This document shows positions 1,804 through 53,861 of a stretch of 64,000 nucleotides of DNA, one piece after another. This DNA is from Candidatus Poribacteria bacterium (GTDB lineage: Bacteria > Poribacteria > WGA-4E > B28-G17). Location of the stretch: positions 1 through 64,000 of the forward strand of contig JAGGXZ010000081.1 in the NCBI GenBank assembly GCA_021162805.1, read 5' to 3'. Position 1 is the stretch's first letter; each line of letters starts with the position of its first letter. The position numbers and the translations under genes were made by a program. The notes under the pieces are model-generated. The model did no database searches. It had not been told where the DNA came from and saw nothing but the letters and a program-made list of their open reading frames with translations.

Positions 1804-2894
1804 TCATATCGGAGGAGTTCTTCAAGCTCGTCCTCGATAGCATCCAGGACGTTATAAAGATAGTCGATAGCCATCTAAGGATAATCTTCATCAACCGTGC
1901 AGCCGAGGAGATCATCGGAAGAAGGCGGGAGGAGATCATCGGTTTGAAATGTTATGAGGTGTTTCACGGCGGCAAACCCTGCCGTCCTTGTATCGTCGAG
2001 GAGGTTTTCTCCTCAAATCGGACGTTCAGGGATACCAGAGAGGTGGTCGGACCTGAAGGTCAAAAACGGGTGTTCGAGGTGACCGGCTTTCCGGTGATAG
2101 GTTCCGATGGAAACATCGAGCGGGTCGTCGAGATATCCAGGGATATAACCTATCTCAAGAAGATCGAGCAGGAACTCATCAAGCGTGAAAAGCTGGCGAT
2201 AATAGGCGAGATGGCTGCCGGATTGGCCCACGAGATAAGAAACCCGCTGAGCTCTATAATGGCATCGGCAAGACTTCTAAGGGAACACAGAGATGAGCTT
2301 TCGGATGAGGAGTACAGGGTGCTGACGAAGACGATCGAGAGGGAATCGAGGAGACTGGAGATATTAATTTCCGATTTCATGGCCTTCGCAAGGCCGAAAG
2401 CCCCTAAGTTCGAGATGTTGGATGTCAATCAGATCCTCCGCGACGCCCTGAAGGTGCTGAGATATAATCCGGATCTGTTTCGAGACGTGGAGGTCCTCGA
2501 GGAGCTCGATCCCAACCTTCCACCGATAAGGGTGGATCCCTACCAAATAGAGCAGGTCTTTCTGAACGTCATCCTCAATGCCCTCCAGGCGATGAGGAAG
2601 GGCGGGAGGCTAACCCTGAGATCCGAAAGGGTGGGAGATGAGATATGCCTGATCATCTCCGACACGGGGATCGGGATCGAGCCGGATAAGATGGACAGGA
2701 TTTTCGCCCCCTTCTACACCGACAAGCCCCAGGGAACCGGCCTGGGCCTTTCGATAGCGCAGAGGATCGTCGAGCAACATGATGGGAGGATAGAGGTCGA
2801 AAGCGAGCCCGGAAGGGGTGCTACCTTCAAGGTGTTCCTTCCGATAAGAGGTCCGGAGGGGGAAGGTGAAGGGCAGAATACTCATAGTCGATGA
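1800..2894 (+). CDS. PAS-domain sensor histidine kinase
   Basis: A 364-residue soluble kinase with no membrane segment. Residues 1-120 form a PAS domain with three cysteines (51, 61, 64), which could serve a redox or metal-sensing role (inference). The HisKA box is AHEIRNPL with phospho-acceptor His144, and the ATPase domain carries DTGIGI and GTGLGLS motifs. It starts at a GTG overlapping the preceding stop and overlaps the next gene by 29 bases. It should phosphorylate the NtrC-type regulator encoded directly downstream. The signal sensed cannot be read from sequence. Confidence 0.9.
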   Translation: MIISEEFFKLVLDSIQDVIKIVDSHLRIIFINRAAEEIIGRRREEIIGLKCYEVFHGGKPCRPCIVEEVFSSNRTFRDTREVVGPEGQKRVFEVTGFPVIGSDGNIERVVEISRDITYLKKIEQELIKREKLAIIGEMAAGLAHEIRNPLSSIMASARLLREHRDELSDEEYRVLTKTIERESRRLEILISDFMAFARPKAPKFEMLDVNQILRDALKVLRYNPDLFRDVEVLEELDPNLPPIRVDPYQIEQVFLNVILNALQAMRKGGRLTLRSERVGDEICLIISDTGIGIEPDKMDRIFAPFYTDKPQGTGLGLSIAQRIVEQHDGRIEVESEPGRGATFKVFLPIRGPEGEGEGQNTHSR

Positions 2895-4239
2895 CGAAAA
2901 ATCCATGAGGTTTACCATCTCGATGCTCCTCAGACGTCACGGATATGCGGTGGACGAGGCGGAGACCGTTCAGGAGGCGGTCGGGAGGATCGAGGGGGAG
3001 GTTTACGATCTGGCCCTTACTGATCTGAGATTGAGCGATGGAAGCGGTCTGGAGCTGTTGAGAGAGGCAAAGCGTATCTCGCCGGAGACCGAGGTGATTA
3101 TACTTACCGCCTTCGGCTCCATAGAGTCGGCCGTCGAGGCCATAAGGCTCGGCGCCTTCGATTACCTGACTAAACCCATAGATCCAGACGATTTACTGTT
3201 GCACGTCCGGAAAGCCGTCGAGCATAAAAGGCTTCGCAGAGCTGTGAAAAACCTCCGATCACAGGTCAAGGAGAGGTATAAGCTCGGCAACATAATAGGC
3301 AAGAGCCGCTCCATGCAGCGGATCTTCGAGATGATCTCAGTCGTATCCAAGACCGATACCACTGTGCTCATACAGGGGGAAAGCGGAACGGGTAAGGAAC
3401 TGGTGGCTAAGGCGATTCATACCCACAGCCATAGGGCTGAGGGGCCTTTCGTTCCCGTTAACTGCGGAGCCATCCCGGAGGCGCTTTTCGAAAGCGAGCT
3501 CTTCGGCCATGTTAAGGGTGCGTTCACGGGGGCGAGCTATAATAGGAAAGGACTGTTCGAGGAAGCGGATGGCGGGACCATATTCCTCGACGAGGTGGCC
3601 GAGATACCCTTCCCGATGCAGGTCAAGCTGCTCAGGGTTTTGGAGGAGAAACGGATAAGAAGGGTGGGCAGCAACGAGACGATCCCCATCGACGTGAGGG
3701 TCATAGCGGCAACAAATAAAGACCTTAAGGCCCTCGTCGATGAGGGGAAGTTCAGGGATGATCTCTTCTACAGGTTGAACGTGGTGATGATCGAGATTCC
3801 GCCGCTTAGGGAACGCCCTGACGATATACTCCCGCTTGCTGAGTATTTCCTGGAGCGGTTCAGCGCCAAACTGAAAAAGGAGATCAGAGAGATGTCGTCC
3901 GAGGCACGCAGGATGCTCCTGAGCTACGATTGGCCGGGGAACGTCAGAGAACTCGAGAACGCCATTGAAAGGGCTGTCCTGCTCTCCCACGATCCGATCA
4001 TCGGACCGGACGACCTGCCGGATACGCTGCGGAAAGGTTCCGAGGATATCCTTCTCGGCCTGATAGCCGAGGGGATAGAGGGGGAATATACGCTGAAAGA
4101 GCTTGAGAGGAGATATATCGAGGCCGTTCTCAGGCGAAATAGAGGAAATAGATCCAAAACGGCAGAACAGCTCGGAATAGGCCGTAATACGCTATGGCGG
4201 AAGATCAAGGAGTATAAGATAGATGTCCCTGAGAGCTAG
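2866..4239 (+). CDS. NtrC-family sigma-54 response regulator
   Basis: A 457-residue activator with three domains. A receiver (1-120) has phospho-acceptor Asp53 and Lys103. A central AAA+ domain has Walker A (GESGTGKE) and the GAFTGA loop that contacts sigma-54. A Fis-type helix-turn-helix occupies the last 35 residues (SKTAEQLGIGRNTLWRK). The GTG start lies inside the kinase gene, so synthesis is probably coupled. Near-perfect -24/-12 sites occur elsewhere in this window at 10760 and 23592. They are possible targets, but no enhancer site was identified. It is convergent with rlmB and overlaps it by 35 bases. Confidence 0.95.
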   Translation: MKGRILIVDDEKSMRFTISMLLRRHGYAVDEAETVQEAVGRIEGEVYDLALTDLRLSDGSGLELLREAKRISPETEVIILTAFGSIESAVEAIRLGAFDYLTKPIDPDDLLLHVRKAVEHKRLRRAVKNLRSQVKERYKLGNIIGKSRSMQRIFEMISVVSKTDTTVLIQGESGTGKELVAKAIHTHSHRAEGPFVPVNCGAIPEALFESELFGHVKGAFTGASYNRKGLFEEADGGTIFLDEVAEIPFPMQVKLLRVLEEKRIRRVGSNETIPIDVRVIAATNKDLKALVDEGKFRDDLFYRLNVVMIEIPPLRERPDDILPLAEYFLERFSAKLKKEIREMSSEARRMLLSYDWPGNVRELENAIERAVLLSHDPIIGPDDLPDTLRKGSEDILLGLIAEGIEGEYTLKELERRYIEAVLRRNRGNRSKTAEQLGIGRNTLWRKIKEYKIDVPES

Positions 4240-4975
4240 AGATCCTTTGTCGCACGGCCTCATAGAGGGCCACCGCCGCCGCCACTGAAGCGTTGAGTGA
4301 GCTGATATCACCGAACATAGGTATGGAAACCAGCATATCACACCTTTCCGAGACAAGTCTGCTTAATCCCTTACCCTCCGATCCGATGACCAGAGCAAGC
4401 GGTATTCTCATATCAATCTGATATATGTTCCGTTCGGCTTCCGGCATGAGACCGACGATCCAGATCCCCTCCTCCTTCAGCCTTTCCAAGGTCATAGCGA
4501 TGTTCGACACCCTAGCGACCGGGATATGATCCGCCGCCCCGGATGAGATCTTAACGACCGTTGGGGTGAGGCCGGCGGCACGTCTCTTCGGTATCACCAC
4601 GCCATGCACGCCGACCGCCTCAGCCGTTCTTATTATTGCACCTAGATTGTGTGGATCCTGAATATGATCTAAGACCACGATAAGGGGAACTCTCTTGGAG
4701 AGAAAGGCCTTATCGATGATCTGGTCAAGGGTGGAGTATCTTACCGGGGAAGTTATGGCGACTATCCCCTGGTGTTTCCGACCTTCAGCTAACCTATCAA
4801 GCTCCTCTGTCCTTTGAAAGACGACCTTGATTCCCCTCCTCCGAGCGATTTCCACAGCCGCCCTGAGTTTGGGATCATTCGGCGATTTACGGACAACCAG
4901 CTCTATGACATGTCTTCTAGACGACCTCAAAATCTCCAGGACGGCATTTCTGCCTTTTATGATTTCAACGTCCAT
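4205..4975 (-). CDS. rlmB: 23S rRNA (guanosine-2'-O-)-methyltransferase RlmB-like (TrmH/SpoU family)
   Basis: A 256-residue SpoU-family enzyme. The N-terminal 75 residues form the RNA-binding substrate domain (IKGRNAVLEIL). The C-terminal SPOUT knot shows the usual motifs: DHIQDPHNLGAIIRTAEA, then VIGSEGKGLSRL, then SIPMFGDISSLNASVAAAVALYEAVRQR. RlmB methylates guanosine 2251 of 23S rRNA; YacO or TrmH-like substrates cannot be excluded. It starts seven bases after the stop of the small membrane protein gene at 4982-5119, so the two probably share a transcript. Confidence 0.88.
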   Translation of the reverse strand: MDVEIIKGRNAVLEILRSSRRHVIELVVRKSPNDPKLRAAVEIARRRGIKVVFQRTEELDRLAEGRKHQGIVAITSPVRYSTLDQIIDKAFLSKRVPLIVVLDHIQDPHNLGAIIRTAEAVGVHGVVIPKRRAAGLTPTVVKISSGAADHIPVARVSNIAMTLERLKEEGIWIVGLMPEAERNIYQIDMRIPLALVIGSEGKGLSRLVSERCDMLVSIPMFGDISSLNASVAAAVALYEAVRQRISSSQGHLSYTP

Positions 4976-4981
4976 GGCCGG

Positions 4982-5119
4982 TTATACCTTTAAGGCCATC
5001 AGTATGAGGAAGGAGATCAGGGCCATAGCGATCGGATATAGGATATGAAAAATGATCTTGCGGATCTTAATTCTCCTATGAATTTCCTCCGGCGTTAGAA
5101 ACCTTCTCCTTCTGAACAT
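4982..5119 (-). CDS. Small single-span membrane protein, 45 residues
   Basis: This short frame has a GAGAGG ribosome site seven bases ahead of its ATG. It encodes a very basic N-terminus (FRRRRF, then HRRIKIRK) followed by one hydrophobic segment (about residues 24-43) and ends with Val-stop. It sits just upstream of rlmB in the same orientation. It is not recognised. The ribosome site, positive-inside topology and close packing favour a real gene. Confidence 0.6.
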   Translation of the reverse strand: MFRRRRFLTPEEIHRRIKIRKIIFHILYPIAMALISFLILMALKV

Positions 5120-5162
5120 CGACCAACCTCTCGTGGACGATCATCCCTCCGGAACAAGCCCT

Positions 5163-5468
5163 TCAATGATAGCTTAATAGACTCATACCTGTCAAGTGTT
5201 CTCCGTAAAGTGCCAGGAGATCGGACACGATGGAACCGCTTCCAGGGGAATCAAATCGGACGTTCATCTCACGTCTCGAAGCGCTTATCCACTCCAACAC
5301 CGCCGGACTCGGGCACTGAACTGAAGCGATTGGAGGGTGAATAGAAGGTATATCCTTGGTTGCCAGATCGGCGACCGGGGTCCTATCGCATCTTTCGAGA
5401 CCGAATATACAGTTTTGAAGGGCACCCTCCCCGTCGATGACCCTCACCACCTCGGCAAGGGTTGACAT
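5163..5468 (-). CDS. Hypothetical protein, 101 residues
   Basis: A GAGAGGGG ribosome site lies six bases before the ATG. The frame is open to a TGA 43 bases ahead of the small membrane protein gene, so an operon with rlmB is possible. The sequence has no membrane segment or motif I recognise. It contains three cysteines and an SPGSGS loop. It is divergent from the heparinase-like gene, with 54 bases between the two starts. Confidence 0.5.
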   Translation of the reverse strand: MSTLAEVVRVIDGEGALQNCIFGLERCDRTPVADLATKDIPSIHPPIASVQCPSPAVLEWISASRREMNVRFDSPGSGSIVSDLLALYGEHLTGMSLLSYH

Positions 5469-5522
5469 ACGCCCCTCTCAGTGATATACTCAGGCGGTCA
5501 ACCTTCAAGACGGAGGCGAGAT

Positions 5523-7283
5523 ATGGTCGGTTTCGTCTGTGCTCTGATGATATCAGGGGTGAACTTTGAGCCGGGGATACCCCCTAATCCTACGGCAACG
5601 CTTAAACGTGATCACCCGCGCCTGATTATCACGCGGGATGAACTTGAAAGGGTCAAAAGGGCCATCGGTGAAAACGAGATGGCCAGGCGATATTTCGAAA
5701 GGATAAAACGACAGGCCGATAAAATCCTCTCTGAGCCTCCCGTCAGATATGAGATACCCGACGGGTTGAGGCTACTGGGCGTGAGCAGAAGATGCCTTAA
5801 CCGGATATATCACCTCGCTACGATGTTCAGGTTAAGCGGCGACCGAAGATATAAGGAGAGGGCTGTGAGGGAGTTGAAGGCGGCGGCGAACTTCCCCGAT
5901 TGGAACCCGCGCCACTTCCTCGACACGGCTGAGATGACGCATGCCTTCGCCATAGGATATGATTGGCTCTACGATTCGCTCTCCGATGGGGAGAGGAGAA
6001 TGATCCGCGAGGCGATCATCGAGAAAGGAATCGATCCAGCCCTGAGGGTTTACGAGAGGGGAGGATGGTGGGCCAAATGCAACCACAACTGGAACCAGGT
6101 CTGCAACGGCGGCATCGCCATCGGGGCCCTCGCCATAGCGGATGAGATCCCAGATCTGGCCGATAGGGTGTTAGGATATGCCCTTGAGTCGATCAAGATC
6201 CCCATGCGTATGTTCAATCCGGACGGCGGATGGGCTGAGGGGCCGGGATATTGGAACTACGCCACCAGCTATAACGTCTATCTCCTGGCGGCGCTTGAGA
6301 CAGCTCTGGGAACAGACTTCGGGTTGTCCGATATGCCGGGATTTTCGGAGACGGGGTATTTCTGTATCTACATGACGGGGCCTCTCTGGAAGACGTTCAA
6401 TTACGCCGATAGCGGCGATAGGGCTCCTCACGCGTCACAGATGTTCTGGCTTGCCAGGCGTTTCGATAAACCCGTCTACGCCTGGTATCAGCATCATATG
6501 GCCTCTCACCACGTCCATCCCCTTGATCTCCTCTGGTTCGATCCTCGGAGCGAAAGCCCCTCTGAGGAGGGTTTACCCTTGGATAGGTGGTTTCACAACG
6601 TGAACGTGGTTTTCCTCAGAAGCAGGTGGGAGGACGAGAGGGCGATCTTCATCGGCTTCAAAGGCGGCGATAATAAGGCAAACCATAGCCATCTGGACCT
6701 AGGTAGCTTCGTGCTGGATGCCGACGGACACAGATGGGCGGTGGACCTCGGCGCGGACGACTACAACATCCCCGGATACTTCGGGAGGCAAAGATGGAGC
6801 TACTACAGGCTCAGAACGGAAGGACACAACACGATAACTTTGAACGGCGAAAACCAAGATCCTCACGCTGAAGCTCCCATAGTCGATTTCAAATCGACCC
6901 CCGATCTTGCATCGGCTGCCGCCGATTTATCGGCAGCATACGGGGATCTGGCCGAGAAAGTCCTGAGGACGGTCTCGCTTGTGGAGAGGAGATACGTCCT
7001 CATTCGGGATGTAATCAAGGCTAGGGAGCCGGTCGAGGTGGCTTGGAACATGCATACGCCGGCAAGCGTGAAGGTCGAAGGATCAAAAGCGATGTTGAGC
7101 CAGAACGGGGCGACCCTGCTGCTGGAGGTTATCGAGCCGAAAGATGCCATCGTGGAATCACATGAGGTGAGCATCCCGCCGCCTCAAAGGCCGATCAAAG
7201 GGATACGCAAGATCACCGTCCGTCCCCCGAGCAGGGTTGAATCGGTCGAGATCCTTATCAGGCTAACCCCACTCGACAAATAG
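5523..7283 (+). CDS. Heparinase II/III family polysaccharide lyase
   Basis: The 586-residue protein has a short hydrophobic N-terminus suggesting export. An (alpha/alpha) toroid segment (around DTAEMTHAFAIGYDWLYD) is followed by a heparinase II/III C-terminal beta domain (NHSHLDLGSFVLDADGHRWAVDLG, about 60% along). Family members cleave uronic-acid polysaccharides such as heparin, alginate or ulvan by beta-elimination; the substrate here is unknown. The ATG at 5523 is preferred over an upstream in-frame GTG because GGAGGCGAG precedes it at good distance. A sulfatase lies two genes downstream, which fits use of a sulfated glycan. Confidence 0.82.
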   Translation: MVGFVCALMISGVNFEPGIPPNPTATLKRDHPRLIITRDELERVKRAIGENEMARRYFERIKRQADKILSEPPVRYEIPDGLRLLGVSRRCLNRIYHLATMFRLSGDRRYKERAVRELKAAANFPDWNPRHFLDTAEMTHAFAIGYDWLYDSLSDGERRMIREAIIEKGIDPALRVYERGGWWAKCNHNWNQVCNGGIAIGALAIADEIPDLADRVLGYALESIKIPMRMFNPDGGWAEGPGYWNYATSYNVYLLAALETALGTDFGLSDMPGFSETGYFCIYMTGPLWKTFNYADSGDRAPHASQMFWLARRFDKPVYAWYQHHMASHHVHPLDLLWFDPRSESPSEEGLPLDRWFHNVNVVFLRSRWEDERAIFIGFKGGDNKANHSHLDLGSFVLDADGHRWAVDLGADDYNIPGYFGRQRWSYYRLRTEGHNTITLNGENQDPHAEAPIVDFKSTPDLASAAADLSAAYGDLAEKVLRTVSLVERRYVLIRDVIKAREPVEVAWNMHTPASVKVEGSKAMLSQNGATLLLEVIEPKDAIVESHEVSIPPPQRPIKGIRKITVRPPSRVESVEILIRLTPLDK

Positions 7284-10862: not shown

Positions 10863-11714
10863 TCACGAAACAGAGATGATCATGTTATCTATGAGACGGG
10901 TGGTTCCGATGAAGACGGCCAAAGCCACCAGAACCTCTCCTTCTATCCTATCCACCTTCTCCAACGTCTCGGAGTCCACTATCTCGACGTAATCTATCTT
11001 AGCGAGCGGTTCAGATTCGATTAACCTACGCATCTCAGATATAATCCGATCGGCCTTTCTCTCGCCCGCCTCCGCGAGGCTTCGGGCCAAGTTTAGGGAT
11101 CTCCAAAGGACAAGGGCTGCTTTTCTCTCCTCAGGGGAAAGATACTCGTTCCTCGAGCTCATGGCCAGTCCGTCCGATTCTCTGACCGTGGGGACGGAGA
11201 TGATCTCGACGTCGAAGTTCAGATCCTTCGCCATGCGTTTGATCACCCTGAGCTGTTGGGCGTCCTTCTCGCCGAAATAGGCCCTATGTGGTTTGACTAT
11301 GTTGAAAAGCTTGGCGACTACGGTCGTGACGCCGCGGAAATGTCCGGGACGCCTGGCGCCGCAGAGCACCGATGTTAACGTTCCCGTCACCTCGACATAT
11401 GTGGCGTATCCGGCCGGATACATATCCTCGACCGATGGGACGAAGAGGAGATCGACGCCTTCCTTCTCGGCAAGTTCCCTGTCCCTATCGAGGTCTCGGG
11501 GATACCTCTCGTAATCCTCGTTCGGCCCGAACTGGGTGGGGTTAACGAAAAGGCTGACGACGAGGAGGTCGTTCTCCTCCCTTGCCCTGCGCATCAGCGT
11601 CAGGTGTCCCTCATGGAAATACCCCATGGTGGGGACGAATCCGATCCTCTTGCCCTGAAGACGCACCCTCTCGCAATGCCTCTGCACCTCCTCAGGCTTA
11701 CTCAGAACCATCAT
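10863..11714 (-). CDS. panC: Pantoate--beta-alanine ligase
   Basis: The 283-residue enzyme joins pantoate and beta-alanine with ATP to form pantothenate, the precursor of coenzyme A. The adenylyl-transferase signature [13 protein letters not shown] lies at residues 28-40, the [17 protein letters not shown] segment near 60, and KMSSRN-type [12 protein letters not shown] later (here [14 protein letters not shown]). Its ATG overlaps the preceding gene's stop by four bases. No other pantothenate genes are nearby, and pairing with an FAD/Fe-S oxidoreductase is unusual. Confidence 0.96.
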
Positions 11715-14554
11715 GGTTTCACCTCATATGACCTGAATAAAACCTCTATGGGGTGTATCGTTTTCAATCCTGTGGCCTGTTCTATCTGTAACCTGCAGGT
11801 TCCACAGCTCGATATGACGATCTCAGCACCGCTGGAGAGGATCTGCCGGAAAAGCGGTTCCCCGGCCTTCAGCGACAGGTCGTAATACTGCTTTTTCATT
11901 CCGAACGTCCCCGCTATCCCACAACATCTATCAGCCACGGTTGTAATCTCCAGTCCCGGTATCCGTCTCAAAATCACCAACGTTCTGTCCTCACCGAGCG
12001 CCTTGAGATGACACGGTATCTGATATGCCGCCTTCATATCGACCGGATTAAGCTCCTCCACCAGCTCGCCTCTTTCCTTCAGATCGAACAGGAACTCGAA
12101 TATGTAATGACAGTGCTCCGCCAGCCTTTTGGATCTTTCATCGTCCAATATCTCCGGATACTCCATCCTCACCGCCAGGAGGCAGCTCGGAGCGCTGAAG
12201 AGTATCTCGAATCCCTCATCGACCAGTTGGGAGAGGATGTCCACGTTCTCACGGATATCGTCCATTGACTCCTCTATACCGCCCATCGTGATCTTAGCCA
12301 CATTACAGCATTTGGTCTTCGGGATGTAAACCTCATACCCATGTCTGCGCAGCACCTCAACCGTCGATACCCCTTCGCCGGCCGGATCGTTGTAGTTGGC
12401 GTAACACCCGGCGAAATAGGCCACCTTTTTCTCCCCCGTCGGTTTTCGCCTCGGATATCTCCTGGAAAGGGTCATGAACCTGTACCTGGGCATCCTCCTA
12501 TCCCTGTGTATCCCGAGGATCAACTCCATCAGCCATCTGATCGGTTTGAGTTGCATCGTCAGATTGGCCAAAGGGGCGAAAGTAGTGGCGAGCGGAGCGA
12601 TTTTCGAGGCGTTGCCCAGGAATAGATTCTGAATCGAGAGGCCGTGTTCGCGCACATATACGGCCCTCGCCTCAAGACAAAGCATTGGGACGTTAACCAA
12701 CGCCGGGCATTCGTTCAGACATCGCTTACAGTTATAACATAGATCCATCACCGATTTGAACTCGGTTGAGGTCAGCATCTCAGGGGGAAGATCGCCTGTA
12801 AGAGCGGCCCTGATGAGATTCACCTTGGCGCGGCTGGCTCCTCTCTCCTCTCCCAGGGCACCGAACACCGGGCAATACGACCGACATGTGCCGCAGCCGT
12901 CGCATTTCTCCAGTTCCTCGTGCATCCTCTCCCGATCAAGCCTCGATCCGGTCTGTATATATCGATATTCCGGCCCGTAACGGAGGTTATCGGTGAATCC
13001 CTTGCCTTCCTGAGGGATGATCTTGCCGGGATTGAGCAGGTTGAGCGGATCGAACAGGCGTTTGACCTGGAAGAACAGATCGTAAAGCTCGCCGAACTCC
13101 TTCCTGAGGAAGGGCGTTCTCAGCAATCCGTCGCCGTGTTCGCCCGAAATCGACCCCTCCATCTCCACCACCAGCGAGAAGGTTTCCTCCGCTATCAGCC
13201 GCATCTTCTCGATATCCGATGGGTCCTTGGGATTTAACAGGGGTCTGACGTGAAAGTTGCTATCTCCGGCATGCCCTATCGTACCTACGCGAACGTCATA
13301 TCTCTTCAGTATCCCCCAGAGCTTACCGAGGAACTCGGCCAATCTTTCGGGAGGAACCGACACGTCCTCGATGAAGCGCAGCGGTCGTTTCTCTCCCTTT
13401 ACCCTTCCCAAGATAGCGGAACCGGCCTTTCGGACCCTCCAGAGCTTATCGGCCTCATCCTGATCACGGGCGGGCAGGAAATCGGTGACCAGCCCTTCCT
13501 CTCTCAGAGATCGCTCCGCCTCTTTGAGCTTTTGACGAACCCGATCTGAATCCTCACCGTCGAACTCTATCAGATATACCATCTCAACCTTTTCAGGTAG
13601 GAATCGTCCCAGCTCCCTTTCCCTCATGCGTACCAGATCCACAACCAACCCATCCATCACATCTATCGCGCTAGGGCCTAGTTCCAGCAGAATCGGCACG
13701 GCCATTCCGGCCTTAACGACATCGTCGAAATATGCCATCGCCACAGCCTTGTGCTTCGGGAGATCGATGACGCGCAATCTAGCCTCCGTTACGATGCATA
13801 ACGTTCCCTCAGATCCGACGATCAGCTTCGACAGGTCGAACATCCTATTCTGAATCAGGTCGAATAGGTTATATCCGCTTGAGCTTTTGGCCTTAGGCCG
13901 ATACCTCTCGATGAGATCCCTGTTTTCAATGGTGATACTTTTAAGTCCCTCATAGATCTCCTGTTCAAGCGAGCCGGGCCTGCCGGGAAAATCATCGGGT
14001 ATAAGCTCCAGGGGAACGGGTTTGGTTTTCACCAGATCTCCGTCTGAGAGCACCAGCTCAAGCGATAGGACGTAATCCTTCGTGGTCCCATATTTGACGG
14101 ATCTTGCGCCGGAGGAGTTGTTGGCGATTCCACCTCCGATGGTGCTATAGGCGCTGCTTGAGGTATCGGGGGGGAAGAACTTGCCATACCTTTTAAGCTC
14201 CCTCTGTAGGATATCCTGGACGACCCCGGGCTGAACGACGGCATATCCATCATCGGGATTGATCTCGATTATACGGTTCATGTATTTGCTCAGATCGACG
14301 ATCAGGCCGTCATTCACCGCCTGACCGGCAAGGCTGGAACCGGCTCCCCTTGCCGTAAGGGATATCCTTTGATCGGATGCGTATTCGGCCAGTTTAACCA
14401 GATCGTCGGCGTTTTTCGGATATATCACCCCGATCGGCTTGATCTTATAAAGACAAGCGGCGGTGCTGTAGATCGTCCGGGTTATCTCATCGAACCTAAC
14501 GTCACCGCTTATGAGCGTTTTCAGATGTCTTTCAACTCTATCGGGATCAATCAT
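11711..14554 (-). CDS. FAD-linked oxidase fused to Fe-S/CCG oxidoreductase (GlcD-GlpC type)
   Basis: A 947-residue fusion. Residues about 35-200 are the FAD-binding PCMH domain ([19 protein letters not shown]), 220-490 the FAD-oxidase C domain with HAGDSNFH, and 540-640 hold two 4Fe-4S sites ([12 protein letters not shown] and [12 protein letters not shown]). Two CCG domains follow (KTKCCN and [11 protein letters not shown]). Such fusions oxidise D-lactate, glycolate or other 2-hydroxy acids and pass electrons to the quinone pool at the membrane. The substrate is not determined. GGAGATGAAAG precedes the ATG. Confidence 0.9.
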
Positions 14555-45114: not shown

Positions 45115-45905
45115 ATGATAAGGATGATATGGATGCGTGAGTTTTTCGACCATCTCCATTCCCTTAGGTTTGCCCTCGTGATGGTCGTGATGACGGCGGC
45201 AATGGCAGGGGGTACCCTGCATCCCTGGTTGACGAGCCGTCCACCGGTCTGATGATCCTCCTTCTGGTATGGGCTATTTCGAGCATACTGCTTCCCAACA
45301 CGGGAGGGGTGTTGGCAAGCGGGCTGTCCCCTCTTCCGAGCCCGGAGAAGGTGAGTGATGAGATGCGGACCGCTTATGAACGTGCCAAGGGGGAGTATGA
45401 ATCGCAACATCCCGATGTGGCGGGCACACCGCTCAGCGGGAGATGGTCCCCCAGGGAATCCCTCGGCAGGGCATTAGCTCTCGCTGAGGCGATATACGAG
45501 GTTTACAACAGATATTGGGACGATCAGGTGAGACAGGTGGAACCTGCTCGTCGGCTGATCTCGGTCTCACCCACAGCGCTTTACATGATCTCCATTGAGG
45601 AACTCGCGTGGACGGGGGTAGTTCACTATGAAAGCTTCCTCGATGGCGTCCGAGATTATCGGAGGAATCTGAGGGAGACGCTTTTAGCTCTCTATCCCTT
45701 TAACCCTGACTCCTTTATCGAGGATTGGAATAAGATGAGACCCCTGATCCAAAGGGTGGTGGATTACGGTTCCATACCGAAGTTCGAGGACAAACTGCCG
45801 GAGATCAGTGAGATCCTGGACGGGGTAATGATCAGGATGTCCGTTCTGCTCCTTTTAAACGGGCTTTTCTTCATGCTGAGCTTCTGCTTCTTCAGGAGGA
45901 TCTAA
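45115..45905 (+). pseudogene. Type B ABC-2 permease with internal deletion (B1)
   Basis: The first part (45115-45252) has the type B start REFFDHLHSLRFALVMVV and then a TGA. The second frame (45252-45905) continues with LLVWAISSILLPNTGGVLASG and the C-terminal domain, very like the intact paralogue at 58435. About 215 residues, including four helices and the SGERERGTL motif, are missing and the frames differ. It lies behind the BrnT module and before sigma factor 1. Confidence 0.8.
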
Positions 45906-45979: not shown

Positions 45980-46576
45980 GTGTCCCATCAACCTTCGGAC
46001 GAGGAACTGATGTCTCAGCTCAAAAAGGGGAAAGTGGAGGCGTTTGATATGCTCTTCGCCAGATATCGAAAGCCGCTTTTCAGCTTCATCCTCAGGATGC
46101 TGGGCGATTTCCACAGGGCGCAGGATATATTCCAGGAGACCTTCCTCCGCGTTTTCCGTCACGCTCAGAGGTTCGACGAGTCGCTCAGCTTCTCCCCATG
46201 GCTTTACCGGATCGCCCGCAACCTCTGCCTGGAGGAGATCCGCAGACGGGAGAGGGTCGAGACCATCCCCATAGATGAGAGGGCGGAACTTCAACCGAAG
46301 GAGCTGTGGGAGGGCAGGACGCCGGATGAGGAGCTGGTGAGGAGGGAGATGAGACGAGTTTTGGAGGGAGCTATCCTTCGCCTTACGTGGAAACAGCGAG
46401 AGGTGTTCCTGCTTCGTGAGATTCAGGGGCTCTCCTACGAGGAGATAGGGCAGGTTACAGGGATGTCCGTCCCTGCGGTAAAATCGTGTCTTCATCGGGC
46501 ACGGATGGCTTTGAAGGAGATGCTTACCCCCTACCTGAAATCCGGCGAAATGCCGATAGGGAGGATGAAGCGATGA
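45980..46576 (+). CDS. ECF sigma factor 1
   Basis: A 198-residue sigma-70-family ECF protein. Region 2 is visible as AQDIFQETFLRVFRHAQRF and region 4 as LTWKQREVFLLREIQGLSYEEIGQVTGMSVPAVKSCLHRAR. It directs RNA polymerase to a dedicated regulon. GTG start after GAGGG. It overlaps the anti-sigma gene by four bases, and its position suggests it drives the peptide cluster just downstream. Confidence 0.92.
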   Translation: MSHQPSDEELMSQLKKGKVEAFDMLFARYRKPLFSFILRMLGDFHRAQDIFQETFLRVFRHAQRFDESLSFSPWLYRIARNLCLEEIRRRERVETIPIDERAELQPKELWEGRTPDEELVRREMRRVLEGAILRLTWKQREVFLLREIQGLSYEEIGQVTGMSVPAVKSCLHRARMALKEMLTPYLKSGEMPIGRMKR

Positions 46577-46980
46577 GATGCGAAAGATGCAGAAAGCTAC
46601 TATCGTGGTATCTTGAGTCGGATTTGCCATCAGGGGAGATGAGGGAGATCGAGGAACACCTTTCGACCTGTAAGGAGTGCTCGGGGGAGCTTAAACTGCT
46701 CGAGGAGACGCTGGCGTTGGCAAGGGAATTGCCTCAGCTTGAGCCGCCGGAGGAAACCTGCCTACAACTGCTGGAGAAGGTCAGGGCGATAGCGAAGTTT
46801 GAGAAAGTCATATACATCTGGAGGGAGATGCAAAGCGGAGGAAAAGCAGAAGTTTTCTTCTCTAAGAGGCTGTTGCCGGTAGACCGAGAAGTTGGAAGGA
46901 ATTTCCAATACCAGGCCCGGATTGTGAGGAGATTGGATGGAACGTGGTGGAAATTTGCAAGGATAAGTTTTCTTGGCTGA
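46573..46980 (+). CDS. Zinc-finger (HC2-type) anti-sigma factor 1
   Basis: A 135-residue protein with the zinc-binding pattern CERCRKLL and HLSTCKECSGEL that anti-sigma factors use to hold ECF factors. No membrane helix is evident, and the C-terminal 55 residues look atypical, so a shifted or truncated C-terminus is possible. ATGA overlap with the sigma gene. Confidence 0.75.
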   Translation: MRCERCRKLLSWYLESDLPSGEMREIEEHLSTCKECSGELKLLEETLALARELPQLEPPEETCLQLLEKVRAIAKFEKVIYIWREMQSGGKAEVFFSKRLLPVDREVGRNFQYQARIVRRLDGTWWKFARISFLG

Positions 46981-47079: not shown

Positions 47080-47283
47080 ATGAAGACATATGAAAAACCG
47101 CGGGTAATGGAAACTATACCTGCCGAACAGATATTGATAAATGAGGAAAGTCAAAGTCCGGAATGGCGTGATTGGTCTAATTGGCCTAACTGGTCTAATT
47201 GGCCTAATTGGTCCAATTGGAGCAATACAGAATCGGTTTTGCAACCAGGGATAGAAATCCCTGAAGGAGGTGAAGGGGAATGA
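47080..47283 (+). CDS. RiPP precursor peptide 1 with Trp-X-Asn repeats
   Basis: A 67-residue peptide. Residues 1-28 form a leader (KTYEKPRVMETIPAEQIL) shared with the peptide at 47629. The core has seven Trp at positions 29, 32, 35, 38, 41, 44 and 47, giving WRD and then six WxN units (x is Ser or Pro). A Gly/Glu tail follows. Radical SAM triceptide enzymes link an aromatic ring to the beta carbon of the third residue of such Omega-X-X motifs. AAGGAGG precedes the ATG, and the stop overlaps the PqqD-like gene (ATGA). Confidence 0.8.
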   Translation: MKTYEKPRVMETIPAEQILINEESQSPEWRDWSNWPNWSNWPNWSNWSNTESVLQPGIEIPEGGEGE

Positions 47284-47570
47284 TTCAGAAACCCGGGATG
47301 TATCCGTGGATAGATGTGAAGGAATTGGGAGAGGAAGCTCAGGGAGAAGCGATAATATACAACTATGCCAGAGGTGAAGTTCACAGGATAAACGCCACCG
47401 CTCTAGAGGTGCTTAAGATGTGCGATGGGAAACATACTGCTGAGGAGATAGCCGGAAAGCTAGCGGAGATCTATGATGTCGATCTTGATATCGCTAAGGA
47501 AGATGTCAGGGAACTGATCAATAGGTTCGCCGAGTTAGAGCTTGTTCAGGAGGGTGAGTTTCCCGGATAA
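47280..47570 (+). CDS. PqqD-like RiPP recognition protein
   Basis: A 96-residue PqqD-family protein: INATALEVLKMCDGKHTAEEIAGKLAEIYDVD and DVRELINRFAELELVQEG give the winged-helix recognition fold. Such proteins bind the leader peptide and deliver it to the radical SAM enzyme. It is coupled to precursor 1 and followed by a terminator hairpin. Confidence 0.88.
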   Translation: MIQKPGMYPWIDVKELGEEAQGEAIIYNYARGEVHRINATALEVLKMCDGKHTAEEIAGKLAEIYDVDLDIAKEDVRELINRFAELELVQEGEFPG

Positions 47571-47628: not shown

Positions 47629-47814
47629 ATGGAAAAGGCGTATGAGAAACCTCAGATATTGGAGACCATGCCCATCGAGCAGGTGTTGAGAGGCGAGATG
47701 GGCGAGGGGATCGCTCCAGAGTGGGTGAATTGGAACCAGAGTTGGAATAACAGTTGGCTAAACACAGGAGTAGTTCCACAGCCAGAAGGGGAAACTTCTG
47801 TACTGTCAAATTAA
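47629..47814 (+). CDS. RiPP precursor peptide 2
   Basis: A 61-residue peptide with leader KAYEKPQILETMPIEQVL matching precursor 1. The core EWVNWNQSWNNSWLNT has Trp at 32, 35, 39 and 43, so WVN, WNQ, WNN and WLN triads with slightly wider spacing. A short Pro/Glu/Ser tail ends it. AAGGAGG precedes the ATG. It lies between a terminator and the glycosyltransferase gene. Confidence 0.78.
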   Translation: MEKAYEKPQILETMPIEQVLRGEMGEGIAPEWVNWNQSWNNSWLNTGVVPQPEGETSVLSN

Positions 47815-47953: not shown

Positions 47954-49498
47954 ATGAAGGTAGCGCTAGTCGGCCCAAATCCTAACCGATTGGAAGATTT
48001 TCCTGTTCTTAAAAGTATCCAGCGAGTATTCGAAAACTTATTGCTCTCATTAGAATCGGAAGCTGAAGTGGTAAAAGGGTGGGAGAACGAATCTGATCTC
48101 TTTCGGGTAGATGCGATCGTTGGGTCATATGAGGCTTTAAGAATTCGACATAACCTTCACCTTGATATCCCCGTTTTGATTTTCACTTTTGGAGACATGC
48201 CTAATGGAGGATTGATGCTACTTGCCTACCATGGCCTGCTCAGACCTTACGATTGTTTGGCTTTCTCATGCTCTTCCGATCTCATTATATTCGATAGATT
48301 GGTCAAGCAGCGTGATCTGATGACAGAAGTGATCCCGTTCCCCGTAAATTGCGATGTTTTTAGCAGGAGATCGGTTAACCGTGAATCGATAAGGAGAAAA
48401 TATGGGATCTCTGAGAAGGGTAAACTGCTGTTCTATGCTGGGCGGGTAAGCCTGCAGAAAAACTTATATGTGCTGATAAGGATATTCGAGGAGGTGACGA
48501 AGGAGAGAGAAGCCGTCTTGTGCATCGCCGGTGCTCCAGATCAAACCCCGTTGAAGGAGTTCGGAGTTTGCGGGTGGGGATACGCTCACAAGTTAAAAGA
48601 GGCTGTGCGAAAGAGAGGTTTAGCGGATAAAGTGATATTCGTTGGCTATCTCGATGACAACGCTTTAGTGGAGCTATATTCTGCATCGGATCTGTTTATC
48701 AACCCAACTCTTCATCATGATGAGAACTTTGGGTTTTCCCAGGTCGAAGCTCAATCGTGTGGTTTACCGGTCGTTGCTTCAAAGTGGGGAGGTATCAAAG
48801 ATACAGTGCTTCATGGGGAAACAGGATTTCTTATGGAGACGATCCTAACCGATAACGGACCGAGGTTAGAATGGCGCTCTGGAGTCAAATATATCTTAAA
48901 CTTGCTCTCTGATGATGACATATTGTGGAGGAGAATGTCCGATAGGTGCAGAACCCACGTTTTATCAACCTTTAGCATAAAAGCTGTTGGGAAGAGGATA
49001 AAGTCAACCCTGGAGGAGATGATCTCCATCAAAAGAAAGGTGAGGCCAACTGCTTCCCCTGTTGTGAGGATAAAAGACGAAATAAAGAGTTACATAATCG
49101 GCTCTATAAAACTAAGCGAAGAAGGGAAGCTTAGGTATCATAACCTACCTGTAGCTGGTTCCAAGGAGGCAAGGTGGTTTTATAAAATCCGGATGGAACC
49201 GTATTCGTCCACGATGCTTTCGAAAATAGAGGACATAGATGAGACAGTCAGGCCGTATAAAGCGATCGATTTGGAAGTTGATGTGGATAAGGGAATTATA
49301 AAACTGTTAGATCTCATGTGGCCCGGAGAGATTCGGCTTGATCCTAGTTCCCTCACCTTCCTACTTTTATCCAACGGAGAAAGATGCGTGGCTGAAATAT
49401 GTGATAGGGCGGGTATCTCAAGGGAAAGCGGTATTAGGATTTTCCGGGGGCTTATTAGGAAAGGCCTGATCCTCTATATGAAAGAAGGAGGTGGATAG
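47954..49498 (+). CDS. GT4-type glycosyltransferase with PqqD-like C-terminus
   Basis: A 514-residue protein. Residues 1-365 are a GT-B glycosyltransferase; GKLLFYAGRVSLQKN opens the donor-binding half and ENFGFSQVEAQSCGLPVVAS is the EX7E motif. After a linker, residues 430-510 (LTFLLLSNGERCVAEICDRAGISRESGIRIF) look like a PqqD-type winged helix. A leader-binding domain on a transferase suggests it glycosylates the peptide, but the sugar and site are unknown. The start overlaps none; the end overlaps the radical SAM ribosome site. Confidence 0.78.
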   Translation: MKVALVGPNPNRLEDFPVLKSIQRVFENLLLSLESEAEVVKGWENESDLFRVDAIVGSYEALRIRHNLHLDIPVLIFTFGDMPNGGLMLLAYHGLLRPYDCLAFSCSSDLIIFDRLVKQRDLMTEVIPFPVNCDVFSRRSVNRESIRRKYGISEKGKLLFYAGRVSLQKNLYVLIRIFEEVTKEREAVLCIAGAPDQTPLKEFGVCGWGYAHKLKEAVRKRGLADKVIFVGYLDDNALVELYSASDLFINPTLHHDENFGFSQVEAQSCGLPVVASKWGGIKDTVLHGETGFLMETILTDNGPRLEWRSGVKYILNLLSDDDILWRRMSDRCRTHVLSTFSIKAVGKRIKSTLEEMISIKRKVRPTASPVVRIKDEIKSYIIGSIKLSEEGKLRYHNLPVAGSKEARWFYKIRMEPYSSTMLSKIEDIDETVRPYKAIDLEVDVDKGIIKLLDLMWPGEIRLDPSSLTFLLLSNGERCVAEICDRAGISRESGIRIFRGLIRKGLILYMKEGGG

Positions 49499-49499
49499 G

Positions 49500-50915
49500 A
49501 TGTACTCTATCTTTAACCCCGAGCTGCTTCCTCGGTTTTCACTGGAAGAAGATATCAGGGTGGTTCGCTTCAATGACAGATATATCGCTATATCCCCTGA
49601 CACCGGGGGATGGATCGTTTTGGATACACCGGAGCTTTACAAGGTATTTTCGCTTCCGCTAACTTGGGAAATCGGCAGCGAGCTCTATATAAGAGGGATA
49701 GCAAGAAGAAACGGAGTTCCAATCTACACCCCTCCTAACCCGTCTGAGCTTAAGAGGATGACATACTTTGAGTTTCAACTGACCAATGGGTGTAACCTAA
49801 GGTGTGATTACTGCAATGTTGACGCTAAACCTTTAAATGAAGCAAATAAGGCCTCTTTCGATGTAGCGGAGAAGCTCATAGATAGGATCATAGAATATTG
49901 CTTGAACAACGCCATATTCAGAGTTACGGTGCAGTTCAGTGGTGGTGAACCTTTCACCAATTTCGACGTAATGGAACATACATGTTATTACGTTTCTGAA
50001 AGGTTAAAGGGGGAGAAGTTCCCAAAAAAACTGGATTTTCAAGTTCAAACAAATCTTGCCTTTCACCTCGAAGAGAAATGGTTAGAGTTCGTTAAGAAAT
50101 TTCAAATTGGACTGGGAGTCAGCTTAGATGGACCCAAGAAATATCATGACACTCACAGGAAATTCCCGGATGGAAGAGGAAGCTGGGATCTGATTATGAA
50201 GAATCTGGCCAAGTTGAGGGAAGAGGGGATACCATTCGGTGTAATAAGCGTTATAACTCCTGAAAGTGTCTCCGGGATGAAACAGATCGCTGAATTCTTT
50301 TTAAAAATCGGGATAACCGGATTCGTATTAACGCCGCTCCTCCCGGCGGGAAGAGGCTCCAAGATACATGCTTTGGCACCAAGGGAATATACCCACAGGC
50401 TTTTTGAAGTATTCGATGAAGTTCTCATCCCTTATTACAAAGCGACAGGTGAAATGCCACGAGAAAGAGAGTTAGGATTAGCCCTTTTGAATTTCATTCA
50501 GCCGTCAAGACACTATATGTGTTGGAGAACTCCATGTGGGGCAGGGACAAATATATGTGCTGTAACACCCTCTGGAGATGTGTTTCCTTGTGGTTACTGG
50601 GTTAACGAACCAAAGTTTAAAATGGGGAATATCTACTATAACAGCTTCGATGAGATGATATCTGGTAAGGTTGCTTCAACTTTGAGGGGAAGAGAGATCA
50701 GATCGCTGGAGGGGTGTTCGGATTGCCTCTATAGAGCTTGGTGCCAATCACGATGTCCTTTCAGCTCATATCTCCGCTATGGGGATATATTCAAGCCATC
50801 AGGATATTGTGAAATAATGAAAGAATTATTTTCGGAACTCCTGGAAAGGGTGGCCTCCGGCGGTTTAGACGAGCAATCCGTTTATGCACTAGCGCGGAAA
50901 GTGTTGTATTTATGA
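49500..50915 (+). CDS. Radical SAM/SPASM peptide maturase
   Basis: A 471-residue enzyme. Residues 1-85 may be a recognition domain (LPRFSLEEDIRVVRFNDRY). The cluster motif is NGCNLRCDYCNVD, with SGGEPF after it. SPASM cysteines follow in CGAGTNICAVTPSGDVFPCGYW and CSDCLYRAWCQSRC. This architecture is that of cyclophane-, sactipeptide- or similar RiPP maturases; WxN cores favour three-residue cyclophanes (inference). The ATG at 49500 follows GGAGGTG; an in-frame GTG nine bases earlier overlaps that site. Confidence 0.85.
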   Translation: MYSIFNPELLPRFSLEEDIRVVRFNDRYIAISPDTGGWIVLDTPELYKVFSLPLTWEIGSELYIRGIARRNGVPIYTPPNPSELKRMTYFEFQLTNGCNLRCDYCNVDAKPLNEANKASFDVAEKLIDRIIEYCLNNAIFRVTVQFSGGEPFTNFDVMEHTCYYVSERLKGEKFPKKLDFQVQTNLAFHLEEKWLEFVKKFQIGLGVSLDGPKKYHDTHRKFPDGRGSWDLIMKNLAKLREEGIPFGVISVITPESVSGMKQIAEFFLKIGITGFVLTPLLPAGRGSKIHALAPREYTHRLFEVFDEVLIPYYKATGEMPRERELGLALLNFIQPSRHYMCWRTPCGAGTNICAVTPSGDVFPCGYWVNEPKFKMGNIYYNSFDEMISGKVASTLRGREIRSLEGCSDCLYRAWCQSRCPFSSYLRYGDIFKPSGYCEIMKELFSELLERVASGGLDEQSVYALARKVLYL

Positions 50916-50931: not shown

Positions 50932-52416
50932 ATGATGCTTGGGACGATAGTGGCAAAGGAGTTCCTGTCGAACATCTTGACCTTCCGCTTCTCGATAGGC
51001 TTCCTCGTCTGTCTCCTGCTGATCGTGGCAAGCAGTTATGTTTTGACGCAGGATTACGCCGACAGGTTGGAGAGCTATCGGACGGCGATTCGGGAATATG
51101 AAGAGGAGATGTCGAAGATAAAGGTGTATTCGGAGCTCTGCGGCGACCATAAGCCGAAGGCTTTCAGGAAACCTAAACCCTTGAGCGTTTTCAATCAAGG
51201 GGTGGATAAGCGCTTGGGAAATGTCGTTGAGGCTTCAGTCGGTACCGTCCCGATGAGGGCAAAGGAATACAGCCCTGCCAACCCATACATGAGCGTCTTC
51301 CCATCGGTGGATCTTGCGTTAGTCTTCCAGGTCGTTTTGAGCTTGTTGGCCTTGCTTTTCGCCTACGATGCGATCTCCGGCGAGCGAGAAGACGGCACGT
51401 TGTGTCTGATGCTGTCCAACGACGTTCCTAGAGATACGGTTTTACTCGGCAAGTATTTGGGTGGGATGGTCAGTCTATTGCTGCCGCTGATGGTGAGCCT
51501 ACTCGGAGGCTTGCTGGTTATGCAGCTTTCACCGGGGATATCGCTGAAAGGAGCCGATTGGGCGCGTATCGGTTTGATCTTTCTGGTTTCTCTCCTTTAT
51601 CTCTCCCTCTTTTATCTTCTGGGGCTTCTCCTTTCAATCCGGACACATCGCTCAAGCACTGCCCTGATGTTCGCCATGTTCCTCTGGGTCACCCTTGTTC
51701 TGATTTTCCCAAGCGCCACCGTTTTCCTGGTGGATAAACTCGCCCCCATTCGCTCTGAGGAGACGGTCGCCTCAGCTACGTCGGAGATCTGGAAGGAGTT
51801 TAACTCGAAATCGGATGAGTTCCTGAAGAAGTTGGGGTTAAAATCCCCTTTCGAGATGGCTAACGCCGGCTCGACCGTCAGTTCCAGATCGGACAGCTTC
51901 ACCTGGGGAGAAACCGTAAAGGCGTACGGTTTCAGATCGGAGGAGGGGGTCAGGTTAGCCCAGGAGTTTTATGGATTCAAATGCAGACTGGCAGTTGAGT
52001 ATGCGGATAAGGTCTGGCAGGTTTACAGGAAGTATCTGGACGAAAACCCAATCCGTCAGGCAAGATTGGCTTTGAACATCTCCCGCATCTCGCCCGCTGC
52101 GGCATATTACAACGCCACGGCTGTGCTTTCGGAAACCGACCTCGGAAACTTTTTGAATTTCATGGCCCAGGCCAGAATGTATCGGGATCAAATCGTCCAA
52201 TATCTTACCGATAAAAAGGCATTCTCCTCTCGCCAATGGTTCGCCGATGACAAGGGTGTGGCCGACATAACCGACCTACCCAGGTTCAGCGAACGACGCG
52301 AGGGAATAGGTGACAGCTTAAAACGAGCGGGCGTCGATATCCTACTTCTGGTCATCCTGAACTTCCTCCTCTTCCTCGGAGGATATGCCTCCTTTTTGAG
52401 GTGTGACGTTAGATGA
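50932..52416 (+). CDS. ABC-2/DUF3526-type permease A2
   Basis: A 494-residue type A permease: opening MLGTIVAKEFLSNILTFRF, helix near 20-40, extracytoplasmic part, helices around SGEREDGTLCLMLSNDVP and a final helix. It begins 16 bases after the radical SAM stop, so it probably belongs to the peptide operon and would export the product with B2. No ATPase gene is adjacent. Confidence 0.8.
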   Translation: MMLGTIVAKEFLSNILTFRFSIGFLVCLLLIVASSYVLTQDYADRLESYRTAIREYEEEMSKIKVYSELCGDHKPKAFRKPKPLSVFNQGVDKRLGNVVEASVGTVPMRAKEYSPANPYMSVFPSVDLALVFQVVLSLLALLFAYDAISGEREDGTLCLMLSNDVPRDTVLLGKYLGGMVSLLLPLMVSLLGGLLVMQLSPGISLKGADWARIGLIFLVSLLYLSLFYLLGLLLSIRTHRSSTALMFAMFLWVTLVLIFPSATVFLVDKLAPIRSEETVASATSEIWKEFNSKSDEFLKKLGLKSPFEMANAGSTVSSRSDSFTWGETVKAYGFRSEEGVRLAQEFYGFKCRLAVEYADKVWQVYRKYLDENPIRQARLALNISRISPAAAYYNATAVLSETDLGNFLNFMAQARMYRDQIVQYLTDKKAFSSRQWFADDKGVADITDLPRFSERREGIGDSLKRAGVDILLLVILNFLLFLGGYASFLRCDVR

Positions 52417-53861
52417 TCAGGGAGATTATCAAAAGGGAGCTTTTGGATTACATACTCAGTCTCAGGTTTTCGCTCTCTCTCGGTTTGGTTTTGATGTTGA
52501 TGGTGGCGAACGCCCTCGTTTTCATCAAGGACTATGATGACCGTCTGAGGGAATATTCAAACGACGTCAGTAACTCCTTGGAAAGGTTGAAGGAGAAAGC
52601 GGGGAACCTGAGCGACCTCGCGATAGAAGGTCCTGGAGGGTTATACAAGTTCCCAAGCCATCTGGCTTTTTGTGCTAAGGGCGGTGACGATCTTCTGCCG
52701 AAGAAGGTGGAGGGAAGTTCAGGCGGCAGTTACGGCGTCGGCTACAATAAATTCCGCTATTTCTGGAAATCGCTGTGGCGGCTCTCCTATCCGCCGGTCA
52801 GATATCGAAGGAACAACTACCTTCCCGATTTCACCGAGCTGGACTGGAGCTTCATCGTCGGAGTGGTGATGAGTTTCGTAGCGATTTTGTTCACCTTCGA
52901 CTCCATATCCGGGGAACGTGAGAGAGGGACATTACAACTTGTGTTTTCCAATCCCGTATCGCGAGGAGCTGTGTTGCTGGGCAAGCTGTTTGGAGCGTTG
53001 GCCGGGATTTTGATTCCACTGGCTTTTGGCATCTTCGTCAACCTCCTGATTATCAACCTCTCCGGGGACGTTCAGCTTGAAGGGAATGATTGGGTTAGAA
53101 TCGGCGTGATAATAGCTTTGTCGGTTGTTTATCTCACCGGATTCCTTTGTCTGGGACTTGTGGTATCCACCTGCTCCTCCCGTTCATCAACCAGCTTGGT
53201 GACACTGCTTTTAGTGTGGGTGATCCTCGTGGTGTTGTCCCCAAACACGCTCGGATCGATAGCTGGTCGTTGGGGACGCTCTTGGACAAGCAGTGAGTTC
53301 TCACGCAGATTGAAATCAGCTCAACAGGAGGTCAAATCGAGGTATCCTGATGAGAAGCTTTATGCAGCATCGCCTTCGGAAAAACCGCCGAAGATCGAAG
53401 CGATCCGGCTTTGGGCGAGGTATCTGGTGGAATGGAGAGAAGCTGAAAGCAGGGTGGAGGATGAGCATCTAAAGCGTCAGTTCAAACAGGTGGAAAGAGC
53501 GTTTCAAATAACAAGGCTTTCCCCTACCGCTATCTTTCAATATGCATTACAGGCCGTGGCCGGGACGGGATTTGTCCGCCATAAACATTTCATCGCTCAA
53601 GCGAAGCGATATAAAGAGATATTTGAGGAATTCATCAGATCGGAGGACAGAAAAGACCCAAACAGCCTACACATCTGGCTCATAAAGGAAGGGTTATCTC
53701 AGAGGCCCGTCCATCCCGAAGGCATACCGAAGTTCGTCGAGCGATATACACTGACGGATGCAATTCAAAGGGGAATTCTGGACATCGGTCTTTTAGCCTT
53801 ATTCTGTCTGTTCCTTTTCATGGGGGCGTTTCTCTCTTTTCTGAGGGCGCATCTGAAGTGA
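52413..53861 (+). CDS. ABC-2/DUF3526-type permease B2
   Basis: A 482-residue type B permease: opening MIREIIKRELLDYILSLRFSL, helices around SGERERGTLQLVFSNPVSRG, cytoplasmic/extracytoplasmic domain and final helix. ATGA overlap with A2 implies a heterodimer. The TumE toxin gene follows convergently. Confidence 0.8.
   Translation: MIREIIKRELLDYILSLRFSLSLGLVLMLMVANALVFIKDYDDRLREYSNDVSNSLERLKEKAGNLSDLAIEGPGGLYKFPSHLAFCAKGGDDLLPKKVEGSSGGSYGVGYNKFRYFWKSLWRLSYPPVRYRRNNYLPDFTELDWSFIVGVVMSFVAILFTFDSISGERERGTLQLVFSNPVSRGAVLLGKLFGALAGILIPLAFGIFVNLLIINLSGDVQLEGNDWVRIGVIIALSVVYLTGFLCLGLVVSTCSSRSSTSLVTLLLVWVILVVLSPNTLGSIAGRWGRSWTSSEFSRRLKSAQQEVKSRYPDEKLYAASPSEKPPKIEAIRLWARYLVEWREAESRVEDEHLKRQFKQVERAFQITRLSPTAIFQYALQAVAGTGFVRHKHFIAQAKRYKEIFEEFIRSEDRKDPNSLHIWLIKEGLSQRPVHPEGIPKFVERYTLTDAIQRGILDIGLLALFCLFLFMGAFLSFLRAHLK

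Follow-up and report, generated by a model that had tools for sequence, protein, structure and literature searches.

Glycosyltransferases fused to RREs have precedent. The 2020 RRE-Finder paper predicts such fusions (PMC7470986), and RRE fusions to PF00535/GT2 enzymes were reported in 2025 (PMC12710340). In these accounts, a glycosyltransferase (GT) and a candidate RRE occur in presumed RiPP clusters, several of them with radical SAM enzymes, as at the locus described here. The present enzyme differs from the 2025 fusions in being of the GT4 type (PF00534), and from the described fusions generally in that the RRE assignment of its tail falls under sequence thresholds and its family spans three RiPP classes. 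Because RRE–GT fusions had been predicted by 2020, a self-docking GT is a variant of a predicted kind and not a new idea; the novelty that a preliminary description of this DNA implied for the arrangement was overstated.

Triceptide, or three-residue-cyclophane, systems (XncB, OscB, MscB; PMC11002830) share with the locus a SPASM radical SAM enzyme and a precursor rich in W-x-N, the substrate motif of XncB and OscB, whereas the radical SAM enzyme found here scores below curated cyclophane-maturase cut-offs. No report of a glycosylated triceptide was found in the literature searched. Glycocins and glycosylated lasso peptides and lanthipeptides are sugar-bearing RiPPs, as is proposed for the present product; in one of them, pseudomycoidin, the sugar enzyme is the nucleotidyltransferase-like PsmN and not a GT4 with a C-terminal wHTH module (PMC9266682). 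Neither precursor at the locus contains cysteine, so the nested disulfides of a helix-loop-helix glycocin are absent. To our knowledge, glycocin GTs are not GT4 enzymes with such a module either. TIGR04157, whose association with radical SAM enzymes we take from its model name (glyco_rSAM_CFB), has a GT4 fold and a radical SAM neighborhood in common with the present enzyme, which is not a member (score 74 against a cut-off of 400).

The locus lies in a 64,000-nucleotide stretch of a Candidatus Poribacteria contig (JAGGXZ010000081.1), hereafter the window. On balance, we read its GT as a tailoring enzyme that belongs to a radical SAM RiPP cluster, with a tail that would most likely act as an RRE-like peptide-docking domain (Table 1). 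Judged from the sequence of the enzyme and its neighbors, peptide glycosylation is the likeliest function. The gene stands between the precursor and PqqD genes on one side and the radical SAM gene on the other, and overlaps the latter by 8 nt.

Table 1. Features of the GT cluster in the window (positions are those of the window)
Feature	Coordinates	Strand	Evidence or remarks
ECF-type sigma factor	45980..46576	+	Adjoins the cluster on the upstream side; family assigned from sequence only
Anti-sigma-like protein with a zinc-finger-like Cys motif	46486..46980	+	Assigned from sequence
Precursor peptide 1, 67 aa; leader YEKP (YxxP), core WRDWSNWPNWSNWPNWSNWSN, six W-x-N triads	47080..47283	+	Sequence
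Stand-alone PqqD-type RRE	47280..47570	+	PF05402, E 4e-15, 56 bits, cut-off 23
Precursor peptide 2, 61 aa; leader type as precursor 1, core WVNWNQSWNNSWLN	47629..47814	+	Sequence
GT4 glycosyltransferase, 514 aa	47954..49498	+	ORF, Pfam, AlphaFold, Foldseek
C-terminal module of the GT (residues 417–514), candidate RRE	49202..49495	+	PYxS and D(P/L)xWP motifs ahead of three helices
Radical SAM/SPASM peptide maturase	49491..50915	+	PF04055, E 3e-19; PF13186, E 3e-9
ABC-2/DUF3526 permease, possibly export	50932..52416	+	Pfam
ABC-2/DUF3526 permease, possibly export	52413..53861	+	Pfam

The two precursors are 47% identical. Both leaders carry YEKP, a form of the YxxP motif bound by discrete RREs (PMC13381572), and both cores are rich in W-x-N. 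A Pfam search with precursor 1 gave no meaningful match, and precursor 2 has, besides precursor 1, no convincing copy in the rest of the genome. The pairing of a SPASM radical SAM enzyme (PF04055 and PF13186) with adjoining precursors that carry aromatic-x-x motifs, here W-x-N repeats, is of the triceptide type, and from this context the enzyme would be expected to make W-x-N cross-links. Its nearest NCBIfam models—HxsB, PapB, CbpB, and DynA—all score well under their cut-offs, as do the curated cyclophane-maturase models GrrM/OscB (105 bits, cut-off 310), YhhB (93 bits, cut-off 445), and FxsB (77 bits, cut-off 370). A search of 84 genomes of the phylum gave no close homologue of the enzyme. 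The permeases belong to an ABC-2/DUF3526 array that extends from 42940 to 63268, in which the genes at 42940, 50932, 52413, 58435, 60531, and 61526 appear intact and those at 45252 and 57571 appear to be fragments. No ATPase was seen among the ORFs that were annotated.

The catalytic part of the GT is an intact GT4 type. Its ORF opens with an ATG behind a GGAGGGG motif, and Pfam Glycos_transf_1 (PF00534) matches residues 143–295 (E 9e-32; 110 bits against a cut-off of 26.4). The AlphaFold model exceeds a pLDDT of 90 over most of the core, and in Foldseek it is matched best by two GT4 enzymes, BshA and MshA (E 2e-19; GT-B fold). The donor-site motif EX7E does not vary at its glutamates (E257 and E265), either within the GT family or across 30 aligned GT4 enzymes. 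On the strength of the Pfam match, the fold, and these glutamates, the catalytic part is intact, and the preliminary description had rightly named a GT4-like enzyme here.

Past its core, the enzyme ends in a three-helix winged-helix-like unit. In family alignments, the C-terminal ~100 residues hold a conserved Y-x6-PY-x-S and, after it, D(P/L)xWP, followed by three predicted helices that end in LIRKGII. Pfam returned only HTH_5/TrmB for this tail, weakly and under the cut-off (E 0.007), and no PqqD match (PF05402) up to an E limit of 10; the true PqqD of the cluster is the adjoining ORF. Aligned by hhalign with a five-sequence PqqD profile, the tail profile scored 18.6, above all 200 column shuffles (maximum 14.8). 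Larger sets gave 21.0 for RREs, 21.0 for Lrp, and 20.4 for BlaI, with an ArsR set also compared; because the RRE, Lrp, and BlaI profiles score about equally, the sequence of the tail supports “three-helix wHTH-like” and nothing further. A tail profile search of PDB sequences produced nothing significant (best match, BlaI repressor, E 0.33). Across the 84 genomes of the phylum, the tail was found on no other protein and is confined to these GTs.

Structure prediction points in the direction of an RRE. An AlphaFold model of the tail fragment, built from a two-sequence alignment with a mean pLDDT of 50 and ~58 within the fold, places three strands and then three helices at residues 440–502, the order given in the strict RRE definition (PMC12710340). 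When this model was compared by Foldseek with 350,542 PDB chains, the best seven matches were all RRE proteins (TbiB1 five times, PqqD, and a McbBCD chain), at E values of 0.13–1.1, none significant. VIA-align of the same low-confidence model gave RRE chains Z scores of 2.0–2.2, not above the homeodomain or Lrp rows. About 12 residues follow helix 3 in the window GT, little space for the wing that a canonical DNA-binding winged helix has at its C terminus. The weak similarity to the HTH_5/TrmB and BlaI profiles would suit a DNA-binding helix-turn-helix that autoregulates the cluster, a reading made very improbable by the scant or missing wing, by fusion of the tail to a metabolic enzyme, and by the dedicated sigma/anti-sigma pair upstream.

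If one reading of the tail has to be chosen, we lean toward an RRE-like domain as the best. The preliminary description had proposed a winged-helix C terminus resembling PqqD and had offered structure prediction as a check. A winged-helix-like end over residues ~417–514 was borne out; its likeness to PqqD is suggestive but not proven, with an hhalign score above the shuffles on the one side and no PqqD HMM match and equal Lrp and BlaI scores on the other. The check itself returned an RRE-like strand and helix order and an RRE-like Foldseek ranking, although at the low pLDDT and high E values given above. A less probable but still tenable possibility is that the GT glycosylates the RiPP while PqqD alone handles the leader, and that the tail has an accessory role as a generic helical or wHTH-like domain, whether in dimerization, in recognizing the modified core, or in docking to PqqD or the radical SAM enzyme. 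Such a domain would accord with Lrp and BlaI profiles that fit the tail as well as RREs do, with the lack of preference in VIA-align, and with the presence of the same module in class III lanthipeptide clusters, where the leaders have no YxxP; moreover, a cluster that already has a discrete PqqD does not need a second RRE, which counts against a leader-binding tail. The predicted order of secondary structure, the Foldseek ranking, and the little space left for a C-terminal wing weigh instead for the RRE-like domain.

The search for the GT family in the 84 genomes of the phylum returned five other members, including one from the genome to which the window belongs; by neighbor, two are lasso, two class III LanKC, and one radical SAM. 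The lasso cluster at L014 contains B1, B2, and a cyclase (C) with several small precursor ORFs of the KKTYEAPRLVxYGNAT... type, and the GT at L015 adjoins B1 and a cyclase (C), its own C terminus lying beyond the contig end. At L017, the gene ahead of the GT encodes a class III LanKC (711 bits; cut-off 575), and ahead of that MTRILALQKL... peptides, most ending in ...NN, stand in a row (2104–4262); at L016, the GT follows a LanC-like remnant of the same class III kind. In L017, one LanKC synthetase apparently serves many substrates, with the GT alongside. We know of no RRE use by class III lanthipeptide synthetases.

The other GT of this family in the window's own genome (L013, contig C105) is truncated at the N terminus and comes after a PqqE-like radical SAM/SPASM enzyme. 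A sigma/anti-sigma pair (3161..4293), similar to the one upstream of the window cluster, precedes this paralogous radical SAM–GT pair. Within 3161–6878, the N terminus of the radical SAM enzyme looks RRE-like by eye and the GT lacks its N-terminal half; the locus is either a decayed cluster or one with a donor-domain-only GT. Taken with the window GT, L013–L017 bring to six of six the phylum members that adjoin RiPP-type enzymes, three classes overall. The tail is present in four of the five other members (L013, L014, L016, and L017), that is, in all whose C terminus is on the contig.

Beyond the phylum, a scan of a contig collection with the single GT protein gave no relative; repeated with the family alignment, it gave mostly ordinary GT4 enzymes and one true member, L018, from Acidobacteriota. 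A search of 396 Acidobacteriota genomes added one further member (L108), and a plasmid search yielded one weak GT4 match. Both distant Acidobacteriota members keep the tail and adjoin a GT2, weakly MftF-like in L018, with no RiPP enzyme nearby and with small secreted Cys-containing peptides a few kilobases off. The tail is therefore not restricted to RiPP clusters. According to the preliminary description, occurrence of the same GT without a precursor in relatives would speak against recruitment to a leader; the Acidobacteriota pair, lacking RiPP enzymes, goes partly that way, whereas the relatives within the phylum do adjoin RiPP genes. In L108, a SIS/phosphoheptose-isomerase-like protein and a 564-aa protein of no assigned family lie beside the GT genes (11112–13509), neighbors which hint that the sugar at that locus may be of the heptose type.

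GT4 enzymes are mostly polysaccharide enzymes, and the enzyme of the window could be a cell-surface or exopolysaccharide GT4 that adjoins RiPP genes by chance. We consider this improbable: The Acidobacteriota relatives beside another glycosyltransferase and apart from RiPP enzymes would fit it, but the position inside the cluster, the 8-nt overlap with the radical SAM gene, and the RiPP enzymes of three classes beside every phylum member all argue against it.

Other loci in the same genome combine similar parts. At L109 (contig C51, 4439–9506), a second GT4 (544 aa), of another family, has as neighbors three precursor-like ORFs, whose leaders are Tat-like (RRDFLKKIPLFGAGLALGLSAL) and whose cores are rich in CNxG, as well as a PqqD-fused radical SAM protein and a TatA-like ORF; by sequence, this looks like a Tat-exported Cys-rich RiPP cluster. 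In L004 (contig C15, 1–2613), a radical SAM/SPASM-like gene is immediately followed by that of a further GT4 (556 aa), whose C terminus closes with a short helical segment that looks PqqD-like by eye. A 140-aa protein with a PqqD-fold C terminus is encoded directly upstream of an ABC-ATPase-like gene at L110 (7306–7728). Most of the 84 genomes have PqqD matches in ORFs of about that length, which we take as homologues, and 81 of them have some PqqD match.

From the gene content, the GT4 fold, the EX7E pair, the tail, and the RiPP neighbors of all six phylum members, each read from sequence, we infer a pathway of leader binding, cross-linking, and glycosylation, including the order of steps, the donor, and the acceptor residue. 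The discrete PqqD would bind the YxxP leader and hand the precursor to the radical SAM/SPASM enzyme, which would cross-link Trp to Asn in the W-x-N triads to form three-residue cyclophanes. The GT4 would then move a sugar from a nucleotide-sugar donor onto a core side chain—plausibly Ser or Asn of the W-S-N or W-N-N triads, or the Trp indole. During this step, the GT tail would most likely act as an RRE-like docking domain that holds the precursor.

If the tail docks peptides, lasso, class III lanthipeptide, and radical SAM pathways alike could draw on one GT family. In the open-access literature searched, we found no report of a single GT4 family whose members share such a tail and adjoin genes of the lasso, class III lanthipeptide, and radical SAM types, and this reuse across three RiPP classes appears new. 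As a tentative extension, for which our confidence is lower than for the docking role in the window itself, a GT4 family with its own divergent RRE may be a glycosylation module that does not depend on RiPP class and serves lasso peptides, class III lanthipeptides, and radical SAM cyclophanes alike, the product here being a glycosylated three-residue-cyclophane peptide. The cluster poses the question of whether the GT-fused wHTH reads the YxxP leader, as the discrete PqqD would, or another element. If the proposal is true, one self-guided enzyme could carry glycosylation from one RiPP class to another, and glycosylated peptides of the lasso, lanthi-, and cyclophane kinds would be among the products of a poorly studied lineage.
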